Assembly: GCA_020723935.1 (NCBI GenBank)
Contig: DYHY01000008.1
Span: 21,602 to 32,090 of the forward strand
From: Candidatus Micrarchaeum sp.
Lineage (GTDB): Archaea > SpSt-1190 > DYHY01
Length of the DNA: 10,489 nucleotides
Direction: 5' to 3'
In this document: one piece after another, positions 5,700-10,411 of the stretch
How positions within the stretch are numbered: position 1 is the stretch's first letter
How the letters are laid out: the number at the start of each line of letters is the position of its first letter
The notes under the pieces: model-generated
What the model saw: the letters and a program-made list of their open reading frames with translations, nothing else
What the model was told of the DNA's origin: nothing
The model's database searches: none
Translations under genes and position numbers: made by a program

Positions 5700-5713
5700 C
5701 CGTCCAGGGCGGT

Positions 5714-6010
5714 TTATCTCCCAGGACGCTGGATCTGCTCCCTGCTCCGGATGGCCTGCCTCGCCCTCTCCTGATGGTGGGCTATTGACGGGTGCTGCTG
5801 GGGGCTTGCCGACGGGTGGCTGACCTGCCCGCTCACCGTTCCGCCGTAATGGACCGACTCGTCCTGCGAGGAATAGTGGAGCCTCTTGTGGTAGCGGTCG
5901 AGGTACTTCTTCGCGCTGTCGGAAAACCATTTCAGGCCCATCCCCACCGCCGAAAGGGTGACGACGAAGACGGCTATGAACGCGAGGGTAGCGAGGAACT
6001 CGTCTGCCAT
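5714..6010 (-). CDS. Single-helix membrane protein with basic, His-rich tail
   Basis: The 98-residue product has one hydrophobic helix at about 6-27 (FLATLAFIAVFVVTLSAVG) followed by a cytoplasmic-looking tail. The tail holds a Lys/Tyr/His segment (KKYLDRYHKRLHY, 34-46), a Ser/Gln/Pro/His-rich stretch (about 60-80) and an Arg-rich end. I do not recognise it. The frame is open back to 6067, but ATG 6010 was chosen because a TATA box (CTTAAATTG, 6032-6040) is centred 26 bases upstream, which predicts a leaderless transcript. It lies 53 bases downstream of the metallopeptidase stop on the same strand. Confidence 0.7.
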   Translation of the reverse strand: MADEFLATLAFIAVFVVTLSAVGMGLKWFSDSAKKYLDRYHKRLHYSSQDESVHYGGTVSGQVSHPSASPQQHPSIAHHQERARQAIRSREQIQRPGR

Positions 6011-6031
6011 GCCCGACCGGACCTTCCGGGC

Positions 6032-6040
6032 CAATTTAAG
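6032..6040 (-). promoter_or_regulatory. TATA box for the 98-residue membrane protein
   Basis: The minus strand reads CTTAAATTG; 26 bases downstream is the A of ATG 6010, so the message would start at the codon itself. This decides the start against the upstream in-frame ATG at 6067. Confidence 0.55.
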
Positions 6041-6063
6041 GCTTTTCCCGCCGGGGCCCCCTT

Positions 6064-6558
6064 TCAACGGAAAAGGCGGATGAACATTCTGCGCTTTGGC
6101 GGCTCTTCGGCAGGAGGCTCGGGAGGGGCTGTTTCCTCCACAGGGCTTCCGGAGCCAAGCTGGGAATCGTCCCTGCGCGCGGCGGCTAGGCTCCTGTACC
6201 TCTGGTAGAGCCTCTCCACGTTCCTCTCAGTGACGTGGTCGCCGTGGTGGCGGAAGCCGCCCCCGAAGGCGCGCGGGATGTGCAGTATCTCGTGGACGAG
6301 GGTCCTCTCCTTCTCGTCCGCAGGCAGGCGGTCGTACGCCTCGCTTATGACCTCGATGAGGTAGTGGGCCTTCTTTCCCATCGCCGCCTGTCAGATGCGC
6401 GGCAGGGCGTAGCAGCGGGCGAGGGTGCGCCGGGCCTGGGAGCCGGTCGAGCGCACGCAGAAGACGCGCTCCATGTCGACGTGCTCGAGGCCCAGGGTCG
6501 CGACTATGTCGGAAACCTTCCTCCTGATGTCCTCGGCTTCGTAGAACCTTATAGTCAT
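6064..6558 (-). pseudogene. Predicted HExxH metallopeptidase, interrupted by an in-frame TGA
   Basis: Two ORFs in one frame make up one archaeal predicted metallopeptidase. The first runs from ATG 6558 for 55 codons (ending CYALPRI) to TGA at 6391-6393. The frame then continues QAAMGKK, and an ATG at 6381 could start the 105-residue second part. That part holds LIEVISEAYDRLP and the zinc motif HEILH, whose residues would be His89, Glu90 and His93 of the full frame, followed by FRHH with a possible third ligand. Relatives as I recall them read PRIWQ at the junction, so TGA stands where TGG (Trp) is expected. The uninterrupted length, 164 residues, fits the family. After the domain comes a Pro/Glu-rich tail. 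The gene begins seven bases after the S2 stop and is probably co-transcribed. A nonsense mutation or a base error is most likely. Confidence 0.85.
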
Positions 6559-6565
6559 GCTTCGC

Positions 6566-7144
6566 CTAGAGCTCGACGAACTCTTCCGGAGTGACTGAGA
6601 GGTCCAGGTTCTTCTGGAGCTCCCCGCGCTCCCGGAGGACGTACGTCGCGAGGGCCCAGTAGAGCATCCCGAGAGACTTCTTGCCCTTGTTGTTTCCCGG
6701 GATTATCAGGTCCACGTTCTCGCGGGTGTTGTTCGTGTCGCAGAAGGCGACGACCGGGAGCCCTAGCTGCTTTGCCTCCGTGACCGCCTGGCGATCAACG
6801 AGGGGATCCGCCACGACCACGATCTCGGCCTCTGTGAAGTCCGGCGATTCGGGGTTCGTGAGCGATCCGGGCATGAACCTGCCCGCTATCGAGCGGGCCC
6901 CTATGAGCTCGGAGAACTTCTTCGCGACGCCCTGGGCGTAATCGCGCGCCGCGACGACGAGGATCCCGTTGGGATTGTACTTTGCGAGGAACTTCCCAGC
7001 CGTCTGCAGGCGCTCGTCGACCTTCTGGATGTTCATGACCGCGAGGCCGTCGGAGCGGATCTTGTAGACGAACTCCTCCATGTCCTTCCTCCTCTTCTGC
7101 GTGCCGATGTGGACCCCGAAGGCGAGGAACTTGTCCTGTTTCAT
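6566..7144 (-). CDS. rps2: Small ribosomal subunit protein S2 (uS2), archaeal type
   Basis: A component of the 30S subunit that binds on the solvent side of the head-body junction. At 192 residues it carries the archaeal/eukaryotic S2 signatures FGVHIGTQKRRKDM (9-22), VMNIQKVDERL, ILVVAARDYAQ, GRFMPGSLTNP, the strand IVVVADPLVDRQAVTEA, GLPVVAFCDTNNTRENVDL and IIPGNNKGKKSLGMLYW. It lacks a long C-terminal extension. The frame is open to 7222, but ATG 7144 begins at the conserved N-terminus and a TATA box centred near 7178 gives a leader of about seven bases. Here it stands alone rather than in the common archaeal operon with RNA polymerase subunits and enolase. The metallopeptidase follows directly. 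Confidence 0.97.
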   Translation of the reverse strand: MKQDKFLAFGVHIGTQKRRKDMEEFVYKIRSDGLAVMNIQKVDERLQTAGKFLAKYNPNGILVVAARDYAQGVAKKFSELIGARSIAGRFMPGSLTNPESPDFTEAEIVVVADPLVDRQAVTEAKQLGLPVVAFCDTNNTRENVDLIIPGNNKGKKSLGMLYWALATYVLRERGELQKNLDLSVTPEEFVEL

Positions 7145-7173
7145 TGTGGTATCGGAGAAGGCCCAAAGAAGGC

Positions 7174-7182
7174 GGTTTTTAA
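7174..7182 (-). promoter_or_regulatory. TATA box for rps2
   Basis: The minus strand reads CTTAAAAAC. Initiation about 26 bases downstream falls near 7151, just before ATG 7144. Confidence 0.6.
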
Positions 7183-7269
7183 GCTTTTTTAGGACGGTTT
7201 TGGAAGCTCGGCGCCAAAACAATCCTGCGCTTCCCTTGCCAGTCCGAAACGGCCGGAGACGGTGAAAAC

Positions 7270-8138: not shown

Positions 8139-8924
8139 TTAAGGCAGAACCTTCCGGAGCTCCTTCGCGTGCCTGATCGAGTCCTCGATCATCCAGATGA
8201 TCTCGGTGTCGGTGAAGCCTGCGACGCCCCCCTTCTGGATGGCGCACACCTCGTCCTTGTCGTTGATCCCGACGGTGAAGCGGCAGCTCATTATCGCCTC
8301 CTCGTCGACCGTCGGGTCCACGATGAGCTTCGTCCCGATCTTGGCGTGGGTGACTCCTATCGCCTTGCCGTTCACCGGAACCGGGGCGGTCAGGTTCTCG
8401 TAGCCCGCCGTCTGCGTCTCGGCGTCGTATGTCGGCATCTTGGCCGTCAGGAGCGCCGCCATGCCGGCCAAAACGCCGGCGTCAATCAGGTTCCCGTCCA
8501 TGTCCAGGGTGTAGAGGTCCAGGTAGAGCATCCAGACCTTCTCCTTGGGCGTGATGCAGAGGGCCTTGGTGTCTATTATCCCGGACTCGCGTATGACGCG
8601 ATCCACCACCCGCGCGAACTCAACGCTCGCCGCGGAGGGCGGCCCCTTCTCGAAGTCGGAGCTCGCTATCGGCGCCATCTCGGCGCCCGTCGCCAGCACC
8701 CCTTCGTCCTGCTTGTCGGGGTAGGGCGTCCCGACCACGAGCTTCACGCCGGCCAGTATCTTGGTGAGGCCTAGCTCGATCAGGGCGCTCCCTTGGGCGT
8801 TCGGGACTATCCCCGTCGTTATCTTCGCGTTCCTGAACTGGTCTATTGTCCTTCCGTCCAGGCGCGCATTCGCTTCGACGAGGTCGATGATCGTCTTCTT
8901 GGTTATTTCGCTTGTGAGAGCCAT
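8139..8924 (-). CDS. rrp42: Exosome complex subunit Rrp42
   Basis: The non-catalytic RNase PH-type subunit of the archaeal exosome. It pairs with Rrp41 to form the hexameric ring that degrades and polyadenylates RNA from the 3' end. The 261 residues begin with the expected helical segment and ARLDGRTIDQFRNAKITTG (20-38). They continue with ALIELGLTKILAGVKLVVG, the family block SSDFEKGPPSAASVEFARVVDRVIRE, and the C-terminal strands TVGINDKDEVCAIQKGG. The length is normal. ATG 8924 lies one base after the rrp41 TGA, with GGAGGT nine bases upstream inside the rrp41 end, which shows coupled translation. It is the last gene of the operon here: a terminator follows rather than the ribosomal protein L37Ae and RNA polymerase P genes seen in many archaea. 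Confidence 0.98.
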   Translation of the reverse strand: MALTSEITKKTIIDLVEANARLDGRTIDQFRNAKITTGIVPNAQGSALIELGLTKILAGVKLVVGTPYPDKQDEGVLATGAEMAPIASSDFEKGPPSAASVEFARVVDRVIRESGIIDTKALCITPKEKVWMLYLDLYTLDMDGNLIDAGVLAGMAALLTAKMPTYDAETQTAGYENLTAPVPVNGKAIGVTHAKIGTKLIVDPTVDEEAIMSCRFTVGINDKDEVCAIQKGGVAGFTDTEIIWMIEDSIRHAKELRKVLP

Positions 8925-8925
8925 T

Positions 8926-9651
8926 TCACTCGTACCTCCTCTTGATGGCGGCCTTCTGCATCTCGTAGATCTCCCTGCAAGCCTTCTTCGCCATGGCCAT
9001 CCCGGCCCGCATCTCGTCTATCTTGAGGTTGCCGTCCATCTGCATCAGGGTGAACTGGTCGATGTTGGGCATGTAGGCGACCGCGCAGTCGGCGAGGCCG
9101 AAGTTGTCCTCCGGCTTGTCCATGTCGACCGCGACGACCTCCTCGCCGTTCTCCCCGTAGAGCTTCCCGAAGGAAACCGCCGTCACCATGTCCTTCATCG
9201 GGATCCCGGCATCCGCCAGAGCGACCGAGGCGGCAGTCAGAGCCGTGACCCTCGTGCTCGCATCCGCTTGGATCACTTCCATGAAGATGTCTATCGCCGT
9301 CTTGGGGAACCTTTCGACGAGTATCGCCGCCTCAAGAGCCTGCGCCGAGACCTTGGATATCTCGGTGGACCTCCTGTCGAGGCCAGGCCTTCTCCTTTCG
9401 GAGTCGACCGAGAACGATTCCATGTTGTAGGTGCAGCGCACGAGCGCCTTTGTGTCCTGCATCTCGTGCTTGGGATGGACCTCGCGGGGCCCGTGGACCC
9501 CGACGACCACCTTGGTCTTCCCGCATTCGATGTAGCAGCTCCCGTCCGCCTTGTCCAGGAACCCCGCTATCATCTTCATCGGCCTGACGTCGCCCGGGGT
9601 CCTCCCGTCGAGCCTGATGCCGTTCTTTATGAGCCATGCGGGTTTATCCAT
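8926..9651 (-). CDS. rrp41: Exosome complex exonuclease subunit Rrp41
   Basis: The catalytic RNase PH-type subunit, a phosphate-dependent 3'-5' exoribonuclease. Motifs from ATG 9651 are NGIRLDGR (10-17), the RNA-binding SERRRPGLDRRSTEIS (84-99), the phosphate-binding region ADASTRVTALTAASVALADAG (129-149) and NFGLADCAVAYMP (183-195), whose Asp188 matches the catalytic Asp of the family. The usual GGTR of the phosphate loop is here ASTR, a small departure. ATG 9651 was chosen over 9669 because it starts at the conserved MDKPAWLIKNG and has GGAGGA about ten bases upstream. It overlaps the rrp4 end by eight bases. The product is 241 residues, normal for the family. Confidence 0.98.
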   Translation of the reverse strand: MDKPAWLIKNGIRLDGRTPGDVRPMKMIAGFLDKADGSCYIECGKTKVVVGVHGPREVHPKHEMQDTKALVRCTYNMESFSVDSERRRPGLDRRSTEISKVSAQALEAAILVERFPKTAIDIFMEVIQADASTRVTALTAASVALADAGIPMKDMVTAVSFGKLYGENGEEVVAVDMDKPEDNFGLADCAVAYMPNIDQFTLMQMDGNLKIDEMRAGMAMAKKACREIYEMQKAAIKRRYE

Positions 9652-10411
9652 ATTCGAAGTCTCCTCCATCGTTGTTCTGCTGCGGTCCCTGCTGCTGTTG
9701 CTGAGGCCTCTCCTCCTCCGGAGGAAGCCCGAGGGACGAGCGGATCCTGTTCGTGAGGCCGCTGGTGTGCGCCTCCGCCTCTATCTGCCTGATCGTCCTG
9801 ATCGCGAGGGCCTCGCTCTTCCTGTTCTGCCCCTTGACCCAGACGCGCCCGTTCTGGCCGACGAGGATGTTGCACCCGGTGGCCTCCTTGAGCGTCCTTA
9901 TCATGCTCCCGCCCCTGCCGATGACCCTGGGCACCTTGGCGGAAGCCATCTCGAAGACGTGGCCGCCCTGCAGCTTCTGCAGGCCCGGCCCCCTCATTGA
10001 GACGTTCGTGTTCATCTGGCTGTCCACGAGCGCGACCCGCGCGAGAATCGTGTCGCCGATTGCGAAGAAGTCCGTCATGTCGTTCTTCCTCGTGTCGATG
10101 TAGGATTCCGAAGCCTCTGATATCGGCAGGACCGCCCCGTAGGGGCTGTTCACCTCAACCGACCAGTTCGAGAAGCGGACCCCGTCCACGACCCCTATCA
10201 CGACGTCCCCTTCCCTGGGAAGGTACTTTCCTCCCAGCGGGATGACTTTCACAAGCCTGCCTTTCTCCTCAAGGATTCCAAGGACGCTTGCGCGTATCTC
10301 CTCTCCGGCGCGGTATGTTCCGTCGCCGGGAAGCATGTCCATGCCCTTTGCCAAGGGCTGCCCGGGCACGACGATCTCTCTTGCGGCGCCGGGGTTTCCT
10401 TCTGCTGCCAT
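9644..10411 (-). CDS. rrp4: Exosome RNA-binding cap subunit Rrp4
   Basis: A cap protein that sits on the Rrp41-Rrp42 ring and feeds RNA into it. The 255 residues show an N-terminal domain (about 10-65, REIVVPGQPLA and GKYLPREGDVVIG), an S1 domain (about 66-145, DGVRFSNWSVEVNSPYGAVL to NVSMRGPG) and a KH domain (about 150-215) with the RNA-binding loop IGRGG at 164-168. The tail after 230 is disordered, rich in Gln and Asn, and acidic at its end (GGDFEYG). ATG 10411 is preceded by GGGTGA with an eight to ten base gap. No TATA box is evident upstream, so it probably belongs to a longer transcript that enters from the right edge, where an SBDS gene would be usual. Confidence 0.97.
   Translation of the reverse strand: MAAEGNPGAAREIVVPGQPLAKGMDMLPGDGTYRAGEEIRASVLGILEEKGRLVKVIPLGGKYLPREGDVVIGVVDGVRFSNWSVEVNSPYGAVLPISEASESYIDTRKNDMTDFFAIGDTILARVALVDSQMNTNVSMRGPGLQKLQGGHVFEMASAKVPRVIGRGGSMIRTLKEATGCNILVGQNGRVWVKGQNRKSEALAIRTIRQIEAEAHTSGLTNRIRSSLGLPPEEERPQQQQQGPQQNNDGGDFEYG

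Follow-up and report, generated by a model that had tools for sequence, protein, structure and literature searches.

An in-frame TGA at the usual Trp position of a PF18894 metallopeptidase-family gene in Candidatus Micrarchaeum sp., most likely a disrupted accessory gene under the standard genetic code

PF18894 (PhageMetallopep, a putative phage metallopeptidase) is a family with relatives in archaeal and bacterial genomes. A small zincin fold, of the kind predicted for the protein discussed here, is also found in the minigluzincins (selecase and jannalysin of M. jannaschii, abylysin of P. abyssi) and in SPRTN and the SprT-like proteases. Prokaryotic genes carrying one in-frame stop, with no other lesion and with intact flanks, have been described as pseudogene or readthrough candidates (PMC7918605). 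The gene described here is like them in these respects, and differs in being known from one genome of its species. It resembles PF18894 in having, in its read-through frame, both the HExxH motif and the later His, and departs from the family in two ways: the frame is broken by a TGA at codon 56, and a Pro/Glu-rich C-terminal tail extends past the end of the profile.

The window, that is, the whole stretch of 10,489 nt analyzed here, is exactly one contig lying between two 10-N gaps of its scaffold, C36 (21592-21601 and 32091-32100); it contains no N, and the TGA is separated from the flanking gaps by 4.1 and 6.4 kb. The gene occupies positions 6558-6064 of the minus strand and is formed by 165 codons with a single internal stop, the TGA at codon 56 (6393-6391), which the ORF reading and the family alignment place at the usual Trp position of the family. 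The N-terminal half (6391-6558) comprises 55 aa and the TGA; it is followed by CAG GCG GCG and, in unchanged frame, by an ATG at 6381, from which the C-terminal half of 105 aa runs to the terminal TGA at 6066-6064 (6064-6381). The coordinates given in the first-pass annotation for the 55-codon ORF, the HEILH-bearing ORF and the four codons between them were exact. The zinc motif HEILH (6280-6294, minus strand) corresponds to residues 89-93 of the read-through frame, and H105 (6244-6246, minus strand) is a candidate third zinc ligand; H89, E90, H93 and H105 are invariant in two family alignments, and metal binding is predicted. Apart from the TGA the gene is intact, with HExxH, H105 and coding signal on both sides of the stop. 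Directly upstream on the same strand lies rpsB, for ribosomal protein S2 (6566-7222), the TAG stop of which is 7 nt before ATG 6558; downstream, a short minus-strand ORF with no Pfam match (5714-6067) overlaps the terminal TGA and probably shares a transcript with the gene. Elsewhere in the window, positions 8139-10411 (minus strand) carry the archaeal exosome cluster rrp4-rrp41-rrp42, with a 26-nt overlap between the frames of rrp4 and rrp41.

With the TGA read as Trp, the frame matches PF18894 with E=2.9e-22 and 79.6 bits (Pfam gathering score, 23.7) and covers profile positions 2-117 of 134. Each half is also recognized alone, the N-terminal one at profile positions 2-53 (E=1.1e-6, 29.2 bits) and the C-terminal one at 60-118 (E=3.2e-7, 30.9 bits). 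Since the two halves match adjacent stretches of one profile, chance adjacency of two frames is excluded: 6558-6064 is one PF18894 gene split in two and not a pair of neighbors that share a frame. Judged from sequence, it is a disrupted copy of the family rather than a demonstrated enzyme. The gene is accessory, being present in 25 of the 101 genomes searched and absent from eight genomes of the same class (G002-G009); no relative was found in a search of IMG/VR, nor any homologue in a sequence search of the PDB.

We aligned 104 relative loci, drawn from the search of 101 genomes and from GTDB contigs, some genomes being present in both collections. At the position of codon 56, Trp is found in 67 loci, Met in 18, Leu in 7, Phe and Ile in 4 each and Val in 2; the two other residues, Gly and Gln, come from apparently misaligned rows. 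The corresponding codons are TGG (67), ATG (18) and for the rest mostly other hydrophobic codons, and a stop is found in none of the 104. The nearest relative (CSMAG_2918, labelled Candidatus Altiarchaeota) belongs to the same family, is 56% identical and reads GKIWQKAL, with TGG at this position; a TAG first taken to lie inside it, which would have suggested a conserved stop, is its terminal stop. Relatives were said in the first-pass annotation to read PRIWQ across this point: the motif is right, whereas the Trp is predominant only and not invariant. The alignment, with TGG in most relatives and a stop in none, supports a TGG ancestor and hence the single TGG-to-TGA change proposed there. 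Of the 67 relatives with TGG, 65 have CAG or CAA as the following codon, and the UGA-C context was therefore inherited and not evolved. Likewise, among 102 relatives the position of ATG 6381 is occupied by Leu in 83 and by Met in 14, so that this ATG is an inherited internal Met codon and not a new start; no clear Shine-Dalgarno sequence was seen upstream of it.

In an AlphaFold model (pLDDT 88, pTM 0.75), the read-through protein forms one domain, a small zincin. Three strands (4-7, 32-38 and 47-51) and a helix (9-22) are predicted before the stop, and beyond it come a strand (66-71) and the zinc helix (80-92); by alignment and model, the conserved R36, S37, A47 and R48 belong to the N-terminal half and the zinc helix to the C-terminal half. 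Selecase (Z 8.1), abylysin (Z 7.3) and SPRTN (Z 7.2), the last a DNA-protein-crosslink protease, are the best structural matches; with sequence identities of 14-20% and Z scores of 7-8 these matches are weak and may reflect a shared arrangement only, and the Pfam SprT-like profile stayed below its cut-off against the read-through frame. According to the model, the product that ends at the TGA would be without the zinc motif and the one that begins after it without the N-terminal strands, and both would be expected to have lost function.

The genetic code was surveyed in 375 kb of the 1.14-Mb genome, taken as stretches. Within the 240 ORFs of at least 200 codons in this sample, TGA is the commonest stop (115, against 85 TAG and 40 TAA) and TGG is used 894 times for Trp; pyk, rrp41 and the four-Cys ORF also end in TGA, as had been claimed. 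Rfam gave 44 tRNA candidates, which were typed with ARAGORN. The only tRNA-Trp found lies on contig C24 (about 36696-36907), has the anticodon CCA and a long intron, was missed by ARAGORN and scores only 18 bits with Rfam. Read by eye, its 5' exon is GGGGTCG...GCAGGCTCCAG and its 3' exon A-CCTGC...CGACCCCACCA, the anticodon stem has its full five pairs, and GGAG in the intron is able to pair with CTCC of the anticodon loop, as in bulge-helix-bulge introns. None of the 44 candidates carries a UCA, CUA or UUA anticodon and no tRNA-Sec scored over the cut-off, in a genome that is about 91% complete, so that a further tRNA gene could lie in the missing part. A tRNA-Stop(tta) called by ARAGORN at C1:7985-8093 is a tRNA-Lys(TTT) with a mis-split intron when read manually, and on C20 an apparent intron-containing tRNA-Leu(caa) seems to be spurious, its stems being mispaired. 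No SECIS-type Rfam match was found in window positions 5700-7000, around the gene. Pyl machinery was considered for the TAG-bearing genes described below: PylS gave only sub-cut-off matches, PylD none, and a PylT-like anticodon pattern gave 17 real and 17 control matches, one match being perfect. The release factor aRF1 is full length and intact, with TASNIKS, YLCEQRF and GGQ.

The same 375 kb were scanned for stops that are flanked on either side by strong coding signal in the same frame and are not soon followed by a start (an earlier Viterbi scan was discarded because, with the strands treated independently and a GC content of 63%, it called antisense genes that were spurious). There were 18 such cases. 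Two control genomes of lower GC gave one each, in 360 kb and in 207 kb, but the comparison is imperfect, because frames open by chance are longer at high GC and several of the 18 cases are simply the normal ends of genes. Sorting by hand left about 10 TAG, 3 TGA (the PF18894 gene included) and 1 TAA; one-step mutation from the codons of this genome predicts proportions of 0.60, 0.23 and 0.16, respectively. Frameshift-like junctions numbered 11, versus one in each of the two control genomes. A methyltransferase gene (C1:34790) and the gene at C1:132411 each combine an in-frame TAG with a frameshift-like junction. The convincing cases include in-frame TAG in the genes of an EamA-type transporter and of a ferric-reductase-like protein, as well as the sulfatase and glutamate dehydrogenase genes described next. 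The two further interior TGAs lie in a sulfatase gene (C1:61032) and in an ORF at C27:6762. Such mixed lesions, in the mutational ratio, point to gene decay or consensus error and would not be given by recoding of a single codon. A glutamate dehydrogenase gene, on the same scaffold as the window but outside it, across N gaps (C36, about 46120-47390; 421 codons), aligns over nearly its full length with solved glutamate dehydrogenases (447 bits) and is without a frameshift; it contains TAGs at C36:46517 and C36:46907, one of them at a Trp conserved in the solved structures. The region C1:17890-18550, with a MEDS-domain match, in-frame TGA and TAG, possibly a later TAA, and frame changes, looks like a pseudogene.

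Four origins of the interruption had been proposed in the first-pass annotation, and the evidence favors two of them, mutation and base-calling error, over readthrough and restart. Very probably, what interrupts the accessory PF18894 gene is a nonsense mutation of recent date or a variant of the strain, with a consensus error as the less likely alternative; taken separately, a true mutation at codon 56 is the probable origin, and an error of the assembled sequence there is unlikely. A genome-wide change in the meaning of UGA, to Trp or to Sec, would account for a TGA at a Trp site and for the interior TGAs of the sulfatase gene and the C27 ORF. Yet TGA terminates nearly half of the long ORFs, the tRNA-Trp found reads CCA, aRF1 is standard, neither a tRNA-Sec over the cut-off nor a SECIS-type match was found, and the interior stops are mostly TAG, as expected from mutation; both reassignment and Sec insertion are thus unsupported, their probability is close to negligible, and the earlier judgement that general reassignment is unlikely holds. 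More probable than this, but still very improbable, is reinitiation after the TGA, at ATG 6381, to give two polypeptides, which would function on their own or in assembled form. The ATG is in frame and 9 nt past the stop, coding signal is kept in both halves, and termination-reinitiation is reported in archaea (PMC6728339). Against it stand the inherited nature of this Met codon, the lack of a clear Shine-Dalgarno sequence before it, and the model, in which a single domain is predicted and R36, S37, A47 and R48 would be parted from the zinc helix.

Basal near-cognate readthrough, in which tRNA-Trp(CCA) would sometimes read UGA-C and yield enough full-length enzyme for function, is improbable, if somewhat less so than restart. 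The UGA-C context is leaky in bacteria and eukaryotes, the base after the UGA is C, and the lesion is a lone one in an otherwise intact gene. A low rate of UGA decoding as Trp is known from E. coli and Salmonella, and purifying selection acts on many in-frame stops of prokaryotes (PMC7918605). The C, however, belongs to the codon that usually follows in the family; the anticodon stem of the tRNA-Trp has 5 bp, whereas that of the UGA-reading form has 4 (PMC13092985); and a 2021 review lists Sec and Pyl alone as demonstrated stop readthrough in archaea (PMC8211752). Readthrough is without positive support here. A broader version, in which the lineage tolerates functional in-frame stops through widespread UAG and UGA readthrough without Sec or Pyl machinery, would make examples of the metallopeptidase TGA and of the two TAGs in the otherwise intact glutamate dehydrogenase gene; we consider it fainter still than restart.

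In the nonsense mutation that we prefer, Trp56 would have changed from TGG to TGA through one G-to-A substitution, a direction suggested by the relatives. The single aRF1 would terminate at the TGA and leave a 55-aa N-terminal stub devoid of the zinc motif; the C-terminal piece would remain unmade, or be a fragment from which three strands and a helix of the domain are missing. In the genome as given by the consensus, the gene is most likely without activity, although purifying selection often continues to act on prokaryotic genes that carry in-frame stops (PMC7918605), which counts against inactivation. As the rest of the gene is intact, inactivation, if any, was recent.

This case illustrates a way of testing for recoding when, in an archaeal genome assembled from a metagenome, a single TGA occupies a Trp site. 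For this genome the answer is most likely an ordinary one, the standard code and a disrupted accessory gene. It would matter only were the raised number of in-frame stops found to be translated, since Sec and Pyl are the only demonstrated cases of archaeal readthrough listed in the 2021 review (PMC8211752).
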